From NCBI GenBank assembly GCA_019309045.1, contig JAFDGZ010000022.1, positions 1 through 64,000 on the forward strand: DNA of 64,000 nt. Direction: 5' to 3'. This DNA is from Deltaproteobacteria bacterium. Lineage in GTDB: Bacteria; Desulfobacterota; Syntrophobacteria; BM002. The notes under the pieces are model-generated. The model did no database searches. It was not told where the DNA came from and saw only the letters and a list, made by a program, of their open reading frames with translations. Made by a program: the position numbers and the translations under genes. Shown here in pieces: positions 56,053-63,762 of this stretch; the stretch's first letter is position 1, and the number at the start of each line of letters is the position of its first letter.

Positions 56053-56112
56053 CAGGCTCTGTTGCTATTGTTGCAGGCTGCCGCCACTTTGCTGAACAGG
56101 GGAAAGGAAATA

Positions 56113-57222
56113 ATGGAGCGCAGGACGAGAGCTGAAATCAACCTGGACAATCTCGCCTACAACATTGCGGCAATCAGACGGAAAGTCCAGCCGGCAGCAG
56201 TGATTCCGGTGTTGAAGGCCGACGCTTACGGCCACGGCATGATCCCGGTGGCCAGGCGGCTGGTGCAGGAGGGCTTCAACATGTTTGCGGTGGCCCAGTT
56301 TCAGGAGGCACTGGAGCTGCGCCAGAGCGGCTTTCAGCAGCCGGTGCTGATCTTTGGCCGCCTGTTTCCCCCGGAGATTGGCGAGGCAGTGAAGGCTGGC
56401 CTGCGTATTTCAGTATTCGGCCTCGAAGATATTCAATGGATCGAAAAGGCGGGCCTGGAGCAGCCCGCCCATGTTCATGTGAAAGTTGAGACAGGAATGG
56501 GAAGGGTCGGGCTGTTGCTGGAGCAGCAGCCTGACATTTTCGACCGTCTCCTTGGCTCGCCAAAGTGCATCTGGGAGGGACTCTACAGTCATTTCTCTAC
56601 CGCGGACGAGGCGGACAAATCCTACGCCAAGCTCCAACTCCAGCGTTTTCAGTCGATTGTTTCCCGATTGCGAGAACTGGCAGCCAGGCCGCTCATGGTA
56701 CACATGGCCAACAGTGGCGCCATTCTTGATTTGCCGGAGAGTTACTTTGACGCTGTGCGGCCGGGCATTCTCATGTACGGCTACTATCCCTCGGCCGAAA
56801 CTTCACAATCGATCGTACCCCGACAGGTAATGACTCTGAAAACATATGTTGCCCATCTGCGCCAGATGCCCTCTGATCATCCCATCAGCTATGGCAGACG
56901 CTGGATTACCAAGAAAGCGACAAAAATAGCAGTTCTGCCAATTGGCTATGCTGACGGCCTTGATCGGCGCCTTACCAACACCGGCGAAGTGCTCATCCAG
57001 GGAAAACGCTATCCCATAGTGGGGACAGTCACCATGGACCAGATCATGGTGGACGTGGGAGACGATCCAATAAGGCCCGGAGATGAGGTGGTGATCTGGG
57101 GGGAGTCGGCCCAGGGAACAATCCAGGTGCTCGACGTAGCCCGCAAGATCGGCACCATCGCTTACGAGCTGACCTGCGCCGTGTCCAGGCGCGTCCCTCG
57201 CGTCTATGTGACCAATTCCTGA
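56113..57222 (+). CDS. alr: Alanine racemase
   Basis: A 369-residue PLP enzyme making D-alanine for peptidoglycan. The PLP lysine lies in PVLKADAYGHGM. VETGMGRVGLL, MANSGAILDLPESYFDAVRPGI and the second-base Tyr region (VGTVTMDQIMVDVG) are present. ATG 56113 has GGGGAAAGGAAATA upstream; the frame extends to 56062 without similarity. Its stop is only 20 bases from the stop of the convergent amidotransferase gene. Confidence 0.96.
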   Translation: MERRTRAEINLDNLAYNIAAIRRKVQPAAVIPVLKADAYGHGMIPVARRLVQEGFNMFAVAQFQEALELRQSGFQQPVLIFGRLFPPEIGEAVKAGLRISVFGLEDIQWIEKAGLEQPAHVHVKVETGMGRVGLLLEQQPDIFDRLLGSPKCIWEGLYSHFSTADEADKSYAKLQLQRFQSIVSRLRELAARPLMVHMANSGAILDLPESYFDAVRPGILMYGYYPSAETSQSIVPRQVMTLKTYVAHLRQMPSDHPISYGRRWITKKATKIAVLPIGYADGLDRRLTNTGEVLIQGKRYPIVGTVTMDQIMVDVGDDPIRPGDEVVIWGESAQGTIQVLDVARKIGTIAYELTCAVSRRVPRVYVTNS

Positions 57223-57241: not shown

Positions 57242-57988
57242 TCACCGCAGGGGCTCTCTGAGAATGATATCTGTTCCTGCTATTGCCAGCAGCAGGCCGC
57301 GGGCATTGCCGGGTGAGGCAATCCTCAACCACTGTTCGTTGCTCAACCCCTTCCCCACGGTGGTGAGCAGCAGGCCGTCTTCCAGATGGGCGCTCTCCCG
57401 GAGCACCATGAATTGCCGGTGGTTGGTGAAGGCAAAAAGGCACCAGCCATTGGTGAGCAGGTAATTATATTTGCCTGGATATTCATGGATCATAGCGCCG
57501 GTTGCCTCGTACAGCCGTTCAAACAGGGGTGAGATGCCAGCAGCGGTTGAAGCCGCTGCCAGCAAATGGTCCCGCAGGTACTCGAATGCCCTGGCAGAGT
57601 CGCTGACCGCCTCCTCTATGATGCTGCCGGAGCTCCGGTAAGATTCTATGCTGACAGCCCTGCCGTTGTGGGCGAATATCCAGTCGCAGTGGGCGAAGTT
57701 GAGGACAAAGGGATGGGCATGGCATTCGTCTATGGGACCGCTGCTGCGCATGCGCAGGTGGCAGATGATGATCCTGCTGGATACCACCCGGGCAATTCTC
57801 TGGAAGCTGTCGTGCAACTGGCCGGGCAGATAGGCTCTGTCGGCAGATTTTTCCACAAAAGCGCGGTGATTCTTGTAATAGCCGATGCCCCAGCCGTCCA
57901 CATTGTTGCTTGCCCGCACCGCGAAGAGGGGCAATGATTTGGGTGCCGAAAAATTCTTGCCAGCAGATAGGGTAAAAAGATCACACAT
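57242..57988 (-). CDS. Class II glutamine amidotransferase-like protein, intact active site
   Basis: A 248-residue Ntn-hydrolase beginning MCDLF, so Cys2 becomes the N-terminal nucleophile after Met removal. VDGWGIGYYKN, SRIIICHLRMRSSG (Arg for glutamine carboxylate) and IFAHNGRAVSI (Asn-Gly oxyanion pair) are all present. It resembles YafJ/EgtC-type stand-alone GATase II proteins, which hydrolyse glutamine or gamma-glutamyl amides. It is the last gene of the minus-strand cluster with a paralogue and a predicted amidoligase. Frame upstream of the MC start is open but not family-like. Confidence 0.9.
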   Translation of the reverse strand: MCDLFTLSAGKNFSAPKSLPLFAVRASNNVDGWGIGYYKNHRAFVEKSADRAYLPGQLHDSFQRIARVVSSRIIICHLRMRSSGPIDECHAHPFVLNFAHCDWIFAHNGRAVSIESYRSSGSIIEEAVSDSARAFEYLRDHLLAAASTAAGISPLFERLYEATGAMIHEYPGKYNYLLTNGWCLFAFTNHRQFMVLRESAHLEDGLLLTTVGKGLSNEQWLRIASPGNARGLLLAIAGTDIILREPLR

Positions 57989-58169
57989 GGGCAAAAAGCG
58001 TTCCTGACGGATTGTCAGCCTCGGCCACAAGCGGAGGCAAGGCGACCCAGAATGGGGCAATTATTGGCCTGCGCCCACTCCTTACCTGGAGCAGCTTCAC
58101 TCTGGCCCATAGTCTTGCGGGATGCCGCCTGCTCACCGCCGCTACCAGGATAGACAGCCCCCACCTTTG

Positions 58170-58910
58170 TTAGAGATCTCCCATATAGAGCACCTCGGGA
58201 CCGGCTATTACCAGAAGTCGACCGATGGAGCTCTCCGGGGCTCGGATAGGCAGCCACTCTTTTTCGCTCAAGCCCTTGTCGAGCGAAGTGAGCAGCAGAA
58301 CCTCACCCGGGGTTTCGGATTCCTTGAGCAACAGGAGCTGCCCGTGATTGCAATAGGCGAACAGCACCGATTCATTGGCAAGGAAAAAGTTATAATAACC
58401 AGGATAAGCAGCCACCAGCTTGGCAATGCTCCTTTGCACAACATCATAGAGGGACAGATAAGGGTTCATTTCTAGATGGCTCATCATTTTGTCTCGCAGG
58501 AATTCGAACACCCTGGCAGGGTACACTTCAGTATCCAGCCGCGGCTCTCTCTCTGTGCAGTATTGCTCTATGTGTTCCACTATACCCACATGGACGAACA
58601 GCCAGCTGTGATTGAGAAAGGGGAGGCAGAAGGGATGATTCAGGGCCACATGGCGGCCGCCACCCCTGTGGCAGCGCAAATGGGAGACAATAATGCGGCT
58701 GTCGATTATGCGCGCCAATCTCTGAAAGCTTTCGTGCACCTGTTCTCCGTCGAAGGCCTGATCAGCAGATTTTTCCACCAGGGCCCTGTCGTCCCGGTAA
58801 AAGCCAATTCCCCAGCCATAAAGATTTTTTCTGCCTTTGGCGGCAAAAATCGGCAGGTACTGGCCGGGAGTGTAGTTGTGGCCTGCTGATATGGCTAGAA
58901 TGTCACACAT
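58170..58910 (-). CDS. Class II glutamine amidotransferase-like protein, altered oxyanion motif
   Basis: A 246-residue paralogue of the next gene, starting MCDILAISAG. LYGWGIGFYRD, SRIIVSHLRCHRGGG and HPFCLPF match, but the FAHNG motif reads FVHVG: the Asn that stabilises the transition state is replaced by Val. Cys2 is kept. It may be a regulatory or partner subunit for its intact neighbour, or bind rather than hydrolyse a gamma-glutamyl ligand. It lies 181 bases upstream of the intact copy and 116 downstream of the amidoligase gene. Confidence 0.88.
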   Translation of the reverse strand: MCDILAISAGHNYTPGQYLPIFAAKGRKNLYGWGIGFYRDDRALVEKSADQAFDGEQVHESFQRLARIIDSRIIVSHLRCHRGGGRHVALNHPFCLPFLNHSWLFVHVGIVEHIEQYCTEREPRLDTEVYPARVFEFLRDKMMSHLEMNPYLSLYDVVQRSIAKLVAAYPGYYNFFLANESVLFAYCNHGQLLLLKESETPGEVLLLTSLDKGLSEKEWLPIRAPESSIGRLLVIAGPEVLYMGDL

Positions 58911-59026
58911 TTTTCTCACAAATGAACTGGGCTGCCAGAGCCATGATGCTTGTTCGAGGCCTCTGGTCCGGACGCTTGGCCTCGAGTTGTCAGCTGCAGG
59001 CAGGAGGAGGAAAATGATCTGCAGAT

Positions 59027-59938
59027 TCAGCTGCCAGCGATGAGATCTGTCAGGCCGTGCCTCCGGTAGAGCCGGTAGATGGTGCGCAGCCATTTGTTGG
59101 CGCCAGCATAGTAAGGAATTTCAGGGGTGAAGCCGCTGCTCAACTCAACAAGGAACTGGGTAAAAATGATCCACTGCATGGCTTCGTCGATGTCAGCGAG
59201 CACTGCGGAGTGGTAGCGAAATTCAATTGTTGACCGGTACCAGTAAGAATGGAGGTTCAGACCGTGATAACGAGTCTTGTCGTAGCGGTGGGGCGCCTCC
59301 GGTTCATAACGGTTTTCGGGGGAGTACCACAGCTGCTTGATCCGGCAGTTGCCATTCTGGCATGAATTGTCACAGGATGCAAGGAATCTATCAATGTCGA
59401 TTTCCATAGGGCGGCAGGTGGCAGAGTTCTGGCGCTCTCCAGGAATGAGAGTGTAAAGTTGCTCCTCGAGAGGGTAGACGAGACTCACCAGTTTTCTTAT
59501 CTGGTCGCAGCCATAGCTGTCTTTGTCGACCCCGTGATGCACATGAAAGCCGCAGCTGTCGTTCACTTTTACCCTGTCAATGGCAGCGAGAAATTGCAGG
59601 GAGTGATAAACCTGGATGAGTCCGTCGAGACCTCTCAACACCGGGCTGACAAGTTCAGCGCCTCCTCGACCCACAATGGAAGAGTCCTCTTCGAAATGCC
59701 ATGACTGTCGATCGCTGCCCAGGCAGATCGTTAGATCCTTGCATAGCTGGTGCAGACGGCGGCCATCTTTGGCGCGAGACCATATGTTGTACGGTTTGAT
59801 CATGCCGCCGTCAAGAGGAGTGACCACATAATTCAGACCATAGGTTTCAATCTCCACCCCAAAAGGACGCTCGGTGAAAAACTGCAGCATGGGGTACTTT
59901 TCTTTGAGGTGCAGGTCGAGCTGTTGAGAACAGGCCAT
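59027..59938 (-). CDS. Predicted amidoligase (GCS/glutamine-synthetase-like superfamily)
   Basis: A 303-residue protein with the amidoligase pattern: FGVEIETYG near the N-terminus (metal-binding ExE), EEDSSI ... GAELVSPVLRGLDGL, then NDSCGFHVHHG, and C-terminal RYHGLNLHSYW with EFRYHSAV and ADIDEAMQWIIF. All acidic and His positions expected of an active ATP-dependent amide-forming ligase are present. A cysteine cluster (CDNSCQNGNC) around residue 190 is an extra. ATG 59938 has AAGGAAC upstream. The family forms amide or isopeptide bonds on peptides or small molecules; the substrate here is unknown. Followed by two class II amidotransferase genes. Confidence 0.86.
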   Translation of the reverse strand: MACSQQLDLHLKEKYPMLQFFTERPFGVEIETYGLNYVVTPLDGGMIKPYNIWSRAKDGRRLHQLCKDLTICLGSDRQSWHFEEDSSIVGRGGAELVSPVLRGLDGLIQVYHSLQFLAAIDRVKVNDSCGFHVHHGVDKDSYGCDQIRKLVSLVYPLEEQLYTLIPGERQNSATCRPMEIDIDRFLASCDNSCQNGNCRIKQLWYSPENRYEPEAPHRYDKTRYHGLNLHSYWYRSTIEFRYHSAVLADIDEAMQWIIFTQFLVELSSGFTPEIPYYAGANKWLRTIYRLYRRHGLTDLIAGS

Positions 59939-60072: not shown

Positions 60073-62097
60073 TTAATGGCTCTCGATTATTCTTGCATCT
60101 ACTACCATATAACCCTCCTGGTAGGCCAGGACAGGGTTGAGATCTATTTCGAGTATATGCGGATTTTTTTCAGCAATGGCCGCCACAGTGAGCAGGCAGT
60201 CTGCCAGAGCGTTGCTGTCTACAGGCGGCTGGCCACGGTAGCCGAACAGCACTCGAGATCCTTGCAGTTCCTTGATCATATTGAGCGCCTCCTGACGGCT
60301 CAGGGGCAGCAGCCTCAAGCTGACGTCCCGAAAGATCTCCACCAGGATGCCTCCGAGGCCGAAGAGTATGACCGGGCCGAACTGGGGGTCGCGCCTCATG
60401 CCAATGATGACTTCCACGCCCGCCGGGGCCATTTTGCTCACCATGACCCCCTCCAATCGAGCATGGGGATGGGCGGCGGCAGCGGCAGCCATGATCTCGC
60501 TGAAACCCTTTTCCACTGCCTCTGCCGAATTGACATTCAGGTGCACGCCTCCCACGTCGCTCTTGTGAACAATGTCCGCAGAGCAGATCTTGAGTGCCAC
60601 AGGAAAGCCCTGCTGCCGGGCGCTTTCTACTGCTGCTGCAGGGCTGTCCGCCAGGCGGAAAGGCGTGACGGTCAAGCCGGCCTCGGCAATCCGAGACATG
60701 GCCAGGTGGGGCGGCAGCTGGCGGCCGCTTACCGGCGAAGTAAGGGTGGGCGAAGAGGGCGCTGCAAGCTTGTTGGCTGCCAGCACCCTGGCCAGGGCCT
60801 TCACTCCCCGCTCCGGAGTTGGAAAAACCGGAATGCCGGCAAGGTGCATCTTTTCACGCTCGGCGCGCTCCACCTCAGCGCCGCCCAGGAAGATGACCAG
60901 CTCATTGGCGCCGGCTGAGACCACCTCGCTGGCGCCCACCACCGGGTCTCCGAAGATTACCCCCACCGTATCATAGCTGTGGCGAGTCGCCTGGATCACC
61001 TCAGCGAACATGGCGGCAGTAGCGTCGCCAGTGAGATCAATGGGGTTGGTCTTGATGGCATGCGGCGGCACAAGAGGGGTGATTTTTTCAGCCAGTTCCC
61101 GGGGCAGCTCTGCAGCGTCCAGGCCTTCCTGCTCTGCCTGGTCCATAGCGAGTATTGCCGCCCCTCCGGAGGTGGTGACGAAAAGAATTCGATTGCCTTT
61201 TGGTGGAGTCAAGTAGGCGAAACCCTTGGCAAAATCATAAAATTCCTCGATGGTGTGGGCCCGGCAGACATTGTATCGTTTGAACAGGGCGTCGTAAATG
61301 GCGTCGGCTCCGGCAAGAGCCTTGGTGTGAGATTCTGCCGCCACTTTTCCCCTAGGAGTTCTGCCCGACTTGAGTACCACCAGTGGCTTGCGCAACTGTT
61401 CCAAGGCGCTGTTGAATTGTGCTGGCCGTTTGACGCCCTCGATATAGGCAGCTATGACCTCGGTGTGTGGATCCTGGTTGAAATAAGAGATCAGGTCGGC
61501 CTCGTCTACATCAGCCCGATTGCCCATGCTGACGAAGCAGGAAACGCCGAGCTTTTCCTCCGAGAACCAGTCCATCATGGCTGCGCCAACCGTGCCGCTT
61601 TGAGAGATGACGGCAACCTTTCCCCTGTAAGTGAGCAATGGCCATGAGGCGCACAGGGGATGGTGGGGATTGTTCACCCCCTGGCAGTTGGGGCCAATAA
61701 GCCTGATGCCGGTCTGCCCACATATGGCGACCAGTTCCTCCTGCAGCCTTTCACCTTCGGCGCCGGCCTCGCTGAAGCCGCCAGTGATGATTATGGCGCC
61801 CTTGACCCCTGCCTCGCCGCACTCCTGCAAGGTCTGCGGCACAAATCTGGCAGGGATAATGATCACCGCCAGATCGGGAGGCTCCGGGATCTCCTTGATG
61901 CCAGCCCAGCAGGGCAGGTCGAGAATTCTGTCCGCCTTGGGGTTCACGGGATAGATGGCGCCGGTAAAACCGCTGTCCACAATGTTCTTGAGGATCTCGT
62001 GTCCAAGTTTATCTGGGCTGGTGGAAGCTCCTATTACCGCCACGCTTTGAGGTCTGAGGGTGGCTTGCAGCCGGCCGAATGCATCAGTGGCCGTCAT
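60073..62097 (-). CDS. Acyl-CoA synthetase (ADP-forming), fused alpha-beta (acetate-CoA ligase type)
   Basis: A 674-residue protein. The alpha part has a CoA-binding domain (SVAVIGASTSPDKLGHEIL), succinyl-CoA-ligase-like domains (VISQSGTVGAAMMDWF, SMGNRADVD) and a conserved His in AAESHTKALAGAD. The C-terminal beta part is ATP-grasp (GFPVALKICSADIVHKSDVGGV, VEVIIGMRRDPQFGP, LEIDLNPVLA). It makes ATP from acyl-CoA, giving acid plus CoA. AGGAGG precedes ATG 62097. A thioesterase gene lies upstream, an energy-linked acyl-CoA disposal pair. The chain specificity is unknown. Confidence 0.94.
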   Translation of the reverse strand: MTATDAFGRLQATLRPQSVAVIGASTSPDKLGHEILKNIVDSGFTGAIYPVNPKADRILDLPCWAGIKEIPEPPDLAVIIIPARFVPQTLQECGEAGVKGAIIITGGFSEAGAEGERLQEELVAICGQTGIRLIGPNCQGVNNPHHPLCASWPLLTYRGKVAVISQSGTVGAAMMDWFSEEKLGVSCFVSMGNRADVDEADLISYFNQDPHTEVIAAYIEGVKRPAQFNSALEQLRKPLVVLKSGRTPRGKVAAESHTKALAGADAIYDALFKRYNVCRAHTIEEFYDFAKGFAYLTPPKGNRILFVTTSGGAAILAMDQAEQEGLDAAELPRELAEKITPLVPPHAIKTNPIDLTGDATAAMFAEVIQATRHSYDTVGVIFGDPVVGASEVVSAGANELVIFLGGAEVERAEREKMHLAGIPVFPTPERGVKALARVLAANKLAAPSSPTLTSPVSGRQLPPHLAMSRIAEAGLTVTPFRLADSPAAAVESARQQGFPVALKICSADIVHKSDVGGVHLNVNSAEAVEKGFSEIMAAAAAAHPHARLEGVMVSKMAPAGVEVIIGMRRDPQFGPVILFGLGGILVEIFRDVSLRLLPLSRQEALNMIKELQGSRVLFGYRGQPPVDSNALADCLLTVAAIAEKNPHILEIDLNPVLAYQEGYMVVDARIIESH

Positions 62098-62269
62098 GGT
62101 CAACCTCCTTTTGCTGAGATGCTTAGAGTTGCGGTTCCAGTGTGCCGGCAAAGGCTTGCACCTGCTGGCAGGGCTGCTTCGGCAACTGGCCAGACATCTC
62201 CTCGAGCTCTGGGTACTGCCCGGTGATGGAATGCTGGCGCTGTCATACCAGTGAGGGCAACAATAGTTT

Positions 62270-62677
62270 TCAGCTGGTGATCTTGTTTGCCTTTTCAGCG
62301 ACCTTGGCGTTGAATTTATCCGTCTGGATGATGAAGCGTTGGTGCACTGCCTCGCCGATCTTTTCGACCTCGTCAAAACCCACAACCTCGAAGGTGAGCT
62401 TTCTGCCGTCAATCTCAGTGAGTTTGGCCTCGAAGCGCACCTTCATACCAAGGGGTGTGGCTGCCAGGTGGCTGAACTTCATGCCGATGCCCACCGTTTG
62501 CTGTCCTGATTCCAGATGGGCCAGGACCATATCGGCGCACACCTCCTCGATGTGTCCCACCATTGCTCGGGTGGCATAGACATTGGGTACATGCGGGTAG
62601 ACTCTCTGGGCAGACATCTCTGAGGTAGTCTGACGTTCCAGGGTGTGTGTCATGCCAACTTCCAACGATTGTGCCAT
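62270..62677 (-). CDS. FlK-type (fluoroacetyl-CoA thioesterase-like) hot-dog protein
   Basis: A 135-residue hot-dog fold protein with the family blocks VYATRAMVGHIEEVCADM, GQQTVGIGMKFSHLAATPLGM and KIGEAVHQRFII. The residue after VYAT and the Glu in GHIEEVC sit where FlK has catalytic Thr and Glu. It probably hydrolyses a short acyl-CoA. GAGGAG precedes ATG 62677. It is 172 bases upstream of the ADP-forming acyl-CoA synthetase gene. Confidence 0.85.
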   Translation of the reverse strand: MAQSLEVGMTHTLERQTTSEMSAQRVYPHVPNVYATRAMVGHIEEVCADMVLAHLESGQQTVGIGMKFSHLAATPLGMKVRFEAKLTEIDGRKLTFEVVGFDEVEKIGEAVHQRFIIQTDKFNAKVAEKANKITS

Positions 62678-62892
62678 GGCTGTCTCCTCTTGCACCATAG
62701 TTTCTGCGACAGAAAACCCACAAAACTGTCTGGAACCGGCGTGGTGTCAGTCCACCGATTCTCAGGTGTCCGCTTGATTTGCCTGCTGCTCAGCACTTCG
62801 ATTCGCATATGCAGCGAGGTATTTTGTTGATAAACCTCGAAGCCTTTGCTCACCTAGCAGCAAGTCCCGAGTAAATAAGTCCATCATTGAAC

Positions 62893-63666
62893 TTATGAAT
62901 CGAAGGACCCGGACAACCCATAGAACCTGCAGGTATTGGCCGCAGTTGACTCTGCAACTTTCTCTGGCGGCCATTGTAACAGTTTTGCCAGCAGGGACAC
63001 AACCTTTTCCAGAAACACTGGCTCGTTTCTCGGCTGATCAGGGAAGGGAGACAGGGCTGGTGAATCGGTTTCCACCAGGAGGAGTTCTGGGTCCAGGGTG
63101 GCCACGGCTCGCTGCAGCTCCAAATTGCTGAAGAGAAGAGCGGAAAATGACAGGTAGAAGCCGCGGCTGGCAGCTTTGCGCGCCACAGCGCTGCTGCCAT
63201 TGAAAGAATGAAACAGAACCCGGGTGCGGGCGCAGCTGAGCATCTCCAGGGTCTGCTCTTCAGCCAGACGGGCGTGTACTACCAGGGGAAGATTCCATTG
63301 TTCAGCGTGCTCCAGGGCCTGCTCCAGCAGGAGAAACTGCCGCTGTCGGCGGCGCTGATCCCTTACATGGTGGAAATCCGGGCCCGCCTCTCCCACTGCC
63401 ACCAGTTCATGTCTGACTGAGGCAATGGCCTGCCAGAGCTTCTGCATCCGGCGGTCATCCAGGTATGCTGCCACTCTGGGATGGTAGCCTGCACTGAGGT
63501 GGACAAAACCAGGGTAGTCTCTCTTTATCTCCAGACTCTTGTGCAGACTCTGCTCGTCCACTGCAGAGATGACCAGGCCGGCAAGGCGGTGGCAGGCCCG
63601 CTGCATGACCTCATGCCGATCATGACAGTACTTTTCTGAATAGATGTGGCAGTGGGCATCGATCAT
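62893..63666 (-). CDS. TatD-family metal-dependent hydrolase
   Basis: A 257-residue amidohydrolase-fold protein. The metal site is visible as DAHCHIY (HxH), VGEAGPDF (Glu), VVHARL and LLVETDSPAL (Asp). TatD proteins have 3'-5' DNase activity in tests. ATG 63666 gives the usual MIDAHCH start; ATG 63717 would add 17 residues and neither has a good ribosome site. The 62678-62892 gap shows nothing. Confidence 0.88.
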   Translation of the reverse strand: MIDAHCHIYSEKYCHDRHEVMQRACHRLAGLVISAVDEQSLHKSLEIKRDYPGFVHLSAGYHPRVAAYLDDRRMQKLWQAIASVRHELVAVGEAGPDFHHVRDQRRRQRQFLLLEQALEHAEQWNLPLVVHARLAEEQTLEMLSCARTRVLFHSFNGSSAVARKAASRGFYLSFSALLFSNLELQRAVATLDPELLLVETDSPALSPFPDQPRNEPVFLEKVVSLLAKLLQWPPEKVAESTAANTCRFYGLSGSFDS

Positions 63667-63762
63667 GGCGGTGCTGGTCGAACCGAGCTGTTGCTGAAGC
63701 GGCTGTTTCAATAACATGGCGTCGTGTCAGAGGCTTGCCCTATCAGCCATCCTCTCTGGCAG

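Follow-up and report, generated by a model that had tools for sequence, protein, structure and literature searches.

A predicted amidoligase gene lies next to two genes for class II amidotransferases (GATs) in a 64,000-nucleotide stretch of Desulfobacterota DNA (hereafter, the window), which raises the question of whether the three genes form a functional unit and, if so, which chemistry they would carry out. The window belongs to an assembly of 3.9 Mb in 211 contigs, whose relatives are Desulfobacterota. An initial annotation had proposed here a possible undescribed pathway of amide or peptide formation, with D-amino acid chemistry suggested by a converging alanine racemase gene. The features discussed below are the following:

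59027-59938, minus strand: LIG, Amidoligase_2 (GS/GCS-like ATP-dependent amide ligase), 303 aa; PF12224, E=2e-27
58170-58910, minus strand: GATA, divergent class II GAT (Ntn) paralog, 246 aa; PF13230 (GATase_4), E=1.9e-14
57242-57988, minus strand: GATB, class II GAT (Ntn), 248 aa; PF13230 (GATase_4), E=1.1e-24
56062-57222, plus strand: alanine racemase, convergent to the cassette; TIGR00492, 365 bits versus a cut-off of 168
60073-62106, minus strand: ADP-forming acyl-CoA synthetase-like gene upstream of LIG; PF13549/PF13607/PF13380
47238-48725, minus strand: M3-like oligopeptidase; HEMGH motif present, similarity to known M3 subfamilies weak

The reading frames of LIG, GATA and GATB are all intact and share the minus strand, with LIG first and GATA, then GATB, downstream. 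LIG matches PF12224 with 97.1 bits against a cut-off of 22, covering positions 2-243 of the 245 in the profile, and both GATs match PF13230 above the curated cut-off. Since a class II GAT requires an N-terminal cysteine, the conserved Met-Cys starts, supported by 22-row alignments, were used for GATA and GATB instead of those of the longest reading frames (307 and 272 aa), which begin too early. A search of a defense-system library with the cassette gave no match, and its only PHROG matches were a phage amidoligase and an uncharacterized GAT-like family.

Co-inheritance and spacing of the three genes

A collection scan with LIG retrieved 19 loci, all from named Desulfobacterota groups or from 'Deltaproteobacteria'. 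The order LIG-GATA-GATB on one strand is observed in 14 of them, and L020 adds GATA and GATB beside a LIG fragment at a contig end. Orthologs of GATA and GATB, with 52-66% identity, adjoin LIG in 15 of these 19 independently retrieved loci. Four loci first seemed to carry LIG without GATs, and three of the genomes concerned proved to have the GAT tandem at another site. In genome G062, LIG and the tandem are physically apart and both retained, while G061 and G063 carry a complete cassette elsewhere besides a GAT-less LIG locus, indicating that the isolated ligase of these two genomes is an additional copy. No GAT ortholog was found in the genome of locus L002, whose assembly is perhaps incomplete.

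In the window's class, 56 genomes were sampled, 25 with LIG and 31 without. GAT genes are present in 25/25 LIG-positive genomes versus 0/30 LIG-negative ones; the latter count includes one genome with a weak match (E=1.5e-6), scored as GAT-free, and sets aside G007, an incomplete genome in which a contig starts with part of a GAT gene. Two of the 25 LIG-positive genomes (G009 and G011) have a single GAT each, near a contig end, and in three genomes (G015, G017 and G019) LIG lies together with GATA, and GATB sits on another contig. Within genus g17, the distribution is patchy, with the module in 4 genomes and missing from 7, which indicates that it was gained or lost as a unit. An even sample of the phylum (395 genomes) gave the same picture: both GATs occur in 10/10 LIG-positive genomes and neither gene in any of the other 385 (0/385; E<=1e-20). 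Six of these ten genomes belong to family f12, where the GAT tandem is located on a separate contig from LIG. Furthermore, the pairwise distances of LIG, GATA and GATB correlate with r=0.88-0.94 in 24 three-gene sets, partly as a result of shared genome ancestry.

The LIG-GATA gap ranges from -8 to 394 nt across loci and is 5-6 nt or overlapping in L009, L016, L039, L040 and L044. In 5 of the 6 f12 loci, the reading frames of GATA and GATB share 1 nt, which suggests translational coupling. Short or overlapping junctions of both kinds indicate co-expression of the genes, the gaps of the window itself being 116 and 181 nt. These gaps of more than 100 nt, together with convergent and upstream neighbors that differ among families, could be taken to mean that the three genes are neighbors without any common function. 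Such an explanation is strongly disfavored and very improbable in view of the 25/25 versus 0/30 and 10/10 versus 0/385 distributions, unlinked cases included, the retention of the tandem in distant families and the correlated distances. Collectively, these data confirm that Amidoligase_2 and the two GATase_4 paralogs constitute a true module, beyond chance. The initial annotation had staked its proposal on a neighborhood conserved in relatives, and this was borne out by the 15/19 loci and by the co-occurrence in both class and phylum. The carriers are mostly sulfate-reducing bacteria and include the named strain Desulfoferrobacter suflitae DRH4, which makes the pathway testable.

The ligase and the two unequal amidotransferases

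LIG had been credited in the initial annotation with all apparent catalytic residues, and comparison with relatives agrees with this: the GS-type motifs FGxExE (E29, E31), D85, E95, CGxHxHHG (H132, H134) and TxEFR (E239, R241) are invariant in 25/25. The ATP-binding site presupposed by that proposal appears to be retained, its putative ATP/metal residues being likewise invariant in 25/25. These GS-type residues are also common to amidoligases partnered by GATase_6 and GGACT proteins (L135, L131). The predicted structure of LIG (pLDDT 79) has glutamine synthetases for all of its top 50 PDB fold matches, 1-naphthylamine GS among them, although the matches are weak (best E=1.2e-3, TM about 0.3). 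In a profile alignment to E. coli GlnA, just the HxH motif was aligned, with a probability of 0.3%, and a PDB sequence search with LIG found no similar chain. The LIG subfamily matches PF12224 with E of about 1e-25 to 1e-33, versus 1e-57 to 1e-83 for most other Amidoligase_2 proteins of the phylum, and by this sequence measure it appears to be separate from most of them. No paper in the searched literature reports an activity for the Amidoligase_2 family.

A tree of 37 GATA and 35 GATB rows shows two clades separated by one branch with a support of 100/99, the two paralogs being products of one old duplication. In GATB, Cys2, Arg79, Asn108-Gly109 and Asp130 are each invariant in 35/35. From position and motif, we take Cys2 to be the nucleophile, Arg79 to bind the glutamine carboxylate, Asn108-Gly109 to form the oxyanion hole and Asp130 to bind the amino group. 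Whereas GATB possesses all the residues by which a class II GAT is recognized, GATA retains only Cys2 (37/37) and Gly109 (36/37). Its oxyanion Asn108 is lost in 37/37 (28 carry Val instead), just 7/37 retain Arg79, Asp130 is largely replaced and the Ser-Asp-Ser motif is gone; on the other hand, an invariant Cys80 has been gained. Hence, the two GATase II paralogs initially annotated behind the ligase on the same strand are both present but not equivalent, since GATA is devoid of the oxyanion Asn and of most glutamyl-binding residues. The Ntn GAT fold is still present in the predicted GATA structure (pLDDT 78.7), whose best PDB fold matches are 1TE5 and EgtC (E to 1.7e-13), with PurF and GlmS also found. 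For GATB, the nearest solved structure is 1TE5, a predicted GAT from P. aeruginosa (profile E=1.1e-12).

As judged from its sequence, GATA is unlikely to be an ordinary glutaminase, though it is retained wherever GATB is. Its residue loss suggests that it is a probable partner of GATB, governing substrate choice or regulation. A bolder idea, tentative and on balance doubtful, is that GATA, its pocket dead but Cys2 and Cys80 in place, has acquired a novel catalytic or redox function and joins GATB and the divergent amidoligase in synthesizing or recycling a gamma-glutamyl (or other amide) metabolite not yet described, in sulfate-reducing and syntrophic Desulfobacterota. That one of the two obligate GATs has consistently lost its glutamyl pocket makes the pair a clear example of an Ntn amidotransferase converted either to a partner subunit or to a new enzyme.

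Partner exchange, likely chemistry and flanking genes

For comparison, we used 19 PF12224 loci of the same phylum from outside the LIG subfamily and sought partners within 1.5 kb. A partner is present in 16 of the 19, namely a class II GATase_6 in 10, a peptidase C26 of PuuD type in 3 and an AIG2/GGACT protein, a gamma-glutamyl cyclotransferase, in 3; the other three loci are partly masked, truncated or without a partner in reach. Conserved neighborhood or co-occurrence with a GAT-II, C26 or AIG2 partner was found for both the LIG subfamily and the other loci of the phylum. GATase_6, C26 and AIG2/GGACT are non-homologous, and their common chemistry is the cleavage of gamma-glutamyl amides (as in PuuD, GGACT and EgtC). 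Class II GAT or AIG2 partners for Amidoligase_2 (PF12224) were reportedly predicted by Iyer et al. in 2009. The partnered loci (L138, L140-L143, L131, L132, L134-L137, L139, L154, L156-L158) offer a natural experiment in partner swapping. A gamma-glutamyl cyclotransferase gene is also located 1.1 kb from the amidoligase in a Bacillus phage, and AIG2 is paired with an amidoligase in published prophages as well.

The reading that we favor, with a probability of about 0.5, is that LIG, GATA and GATB constitute a gamma-glutamyl ligase/deglutamylase module with GATA as the specificity or regulatory partner; the gamma-glutamyl chemistry, the direction of the GATB reaction and the GATA heteromer are what we infer. 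LIG would spend ATP on activating a carboxylate group, most probably the one at the gamma position of glutamate, and couple it to an amine of a small metabolite or peptide. GATB, as the complete Cys-Ntn enzyme, would hydrolyze the resulting gamma-glutamyl amide, whether to free the product once further steps have taken place, similarly to EgtC, or to hold the conjugate at a safe level, similarly to AtdA2. The diverged sister GATA would pair with GATB and, in turn, tune substrate choice or regulation. Strict co-occurrence, even when the genes are unlinked, the single duplication, the matching distances and the interchange of partners all argue for such ligation and release.

Alternatively, GATB could act as a glutaminase feeding ammonia to LIG, which would amidate a carboxylate, either on a metabolite or on a peptide of the cell wall or of a protein, following the logic of MurT-GatD, with GATA as a scaffold or channel subunit. 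Indeed, every class II glutaminase residue checked is intact in GATB, co-inheritance would suit a complex, and class II GATs, the commonest Amidoligase_2 partners in the phylum (10 of the 16 interchangeable ones), can act as ammonia donors too. However, C26 proteins and AIG2-type cyclotransferases fill the same slot, and a cyclotransferase is no such ammonia donor; moreover, the three genes lie apart in some genomes, an arrangement less common among tunneled complexes, although this line of argument is indirect. We consider ammonia transfer fairly unlikely and prefer ligation followed by deglutamylation, mainly because three unrelated families of gamma-glutamyl-cleaving enzymes replace one another in this position. 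Such an interchange beside Amidoligase_2 within one phylum narrows the likely chemistry.

As to the substrate, ligation and cleavage could operate on peptidoglycan or another cell-surface peptide, a reading which overlaps the favored one and has been proposed for phage amidoligase/GAT/GGCT cassettes (PMC5498523, PMC11945000, PMC11318856). A hint in this direction comes from family f12, where LIG ends the rpsD-rpoA-rplQ ribosomal cluster with an NlpC/P60 gene directly upstream in 6/6 loci (L091, L093, L095, L097, L099 and L101). Many NlpC/P60 enzymes cut gamma-glutamyl-diamino-acid bonds in peptidoglycan. Nevertheless, this neighbor is confined to f12 and, in L097, about 0.4 kb separates it from LIG; outside f12, no murein gene is conserved beside the cassette, and the alanine racemase is not conserved either. 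A peptidoglycan or cell-surface substrate seems unlikely.

The alanine racemase itself is a genuine gene and converges on the cassette, as initially annotated, but the functional link does not hold: no racemase lies between GATB and purQ/purL in L003, L005, L006 and L019, the gene being absent from the syntenic block in relatives. Synteny thus places it outside the conserved neighborhood and rules it out as a cassette partner, so that it lends no support to D-amino acid chemistry.

Convergent and upstream neighbors of the cassette vary between families, and only LIG, GATA and GATB recur across them. The acyl-CoA synthetase-like gene adjoins LIG in the window's family and in Desulfobacterales (L007, L014, L015 and L105), is missing beside LIG in Syntrophobacteraceae and f12 loci, and is not counted in the core module. 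It belongs to a same-strand block upstream of the cassette (60073-63717 of the window and on into L128, G000:C22:62000-68234) that encodes the ADP-forming acyl-CoA synthetase, an FlK-like thioesterase, TatD and a livK-H-M-G-F-like ABC transporter of the branched-chain amino acid type, with its binding protein. The block recurs in part in two classes, namely in the window's family and in Desulfobacterales (L003, L006, L015 and L105); since it is missing in Syntrophobacteraceae and f12, it is dispensable for the module. A metallo-beta-lactamase-fold gene runs convergently toward either the cassette or LIG in two families (L009, L012, L017, L018 and L020; L091, L095, L097, L099 and L101), by synteny or by chance.

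Second LIG copies in two Desulfobacterales genomes (L004:5136-8933 and L008:5132-8933) sit directly behind genes for a PLP-dependent decarboxylase and an M3-like peptidase. The decarboxylase (L004:6628-7965) shares an operon with the second LIG copy and has MfnA as its nearest NCBI family, under the cut-off of that family. This arrangement may hint at an amine substrate for that copy. The decarboxylase was rejected as a substrate clue for the module, being present in just 4 of the 66 genomes searched and absent from that of the window. Similarly, the M3-like peptidase was discarded as a module member, as it occurs in about one third of relatives, independently of LIG.

Comparison with known systems

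The term 'undescribed' in the initial annotation proved too broad, since Iyer et al. had already predicted neighborhoods of amidoligase and GAT-II genes in 2009 (doi 10.1039/b917682a, as cited in PMC11318856 and PMC10580990), and versions of them are known from phages. As far as these citations convey it, the predicted cassettes resemble the present one in ligase family, catalytic motifs and the presence of a GAT-type or gamma-glutamyl-cleaving partner, and the same pairings are found in this phylum; the present cassette differs by its separate ligase subfamily, its obligate GATase_4 pair, one member of which is degenerate, and its host-chromosome setting. Uses proposed for Amidoligase_2, a predicted family since 2009, mostly concern phages and mobile elements, whereas the cassette described here is chromosomal and strictly co-inherited. 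In the searched literature, we found neither the LIG subfamily nor its asymmetric pair of GATs described.

Phage cassettes carrying an amidoligase and a GAT have been described (PMC3890496, PMC5498523, PMC11945000). The so-called peptidoglycan-modification cassettes of LUZ24-like phages, PSA-HP1 and phiEco32 likewise combine a PF12224 amidoligase with a class II GAT, but they add COOH-NH2_lig, an ATP-grasp enzyme and GGCT, and their single GAT is of the GATase_6 type. Neither a COOH-NH2 ligase nor a peptide ATP-grasp ligase nor GGCT was detected among the cassette-adjacent genes scanned with Pfam.

In the EgtA/EgtC system, a GCS-type ligase forms a gamma-glutamyl compound and a Cys-Ntn amidohydrolase strips off the glutamyl group. 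The analogy with EgtC drawn in the initial annotation is sound, as EgtC resembles the GATs closely in fold, ranks with their nearest solved structures and is also their nearest NCBI family (38.8 and 33.9 bits). Production of ergothioneine or a close relative of it, with the cassette providing EgtA and EgtC equivalents, is nonetheless extremely improbable: the GAT scores lie far under the EgtC (TIGR03442) equivalog cut-off of 218.65 bits, and EgtD (PF10017) is absent from the window genome (G000) and from 22/25 LIG-positive genomes of the class. Both observations refute the canonical ergothioneine pathway and agree with the initial expectation of a different product; two GATs and another ligase family further set the cassette apart.

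Finally, in the aniline and 1-naphthylamine pathways, the GS-type enzymes AtdA1 and NpaA1 add glutamate to an amine and a GAT-like enzyme hydrolyzes the product (PMC11335346, PMC4539516), AtdA2 keeping gamma-glutamylanilide at a safe level (PMC11335346). AtdA1 is glutamine synthetase-like, and the dioxygenase of its pathway is not in the cassette; we do not claim the cassette as a member of these systems. The association of a ligase adding glutamate to an amine with a GAT-like hydrolase (AtdA1/AtdA2, NpaA1/NpaA2) nevertheless provides a functional analog, which supports ligation and release as the likely function of LIG, GATA and GATB.
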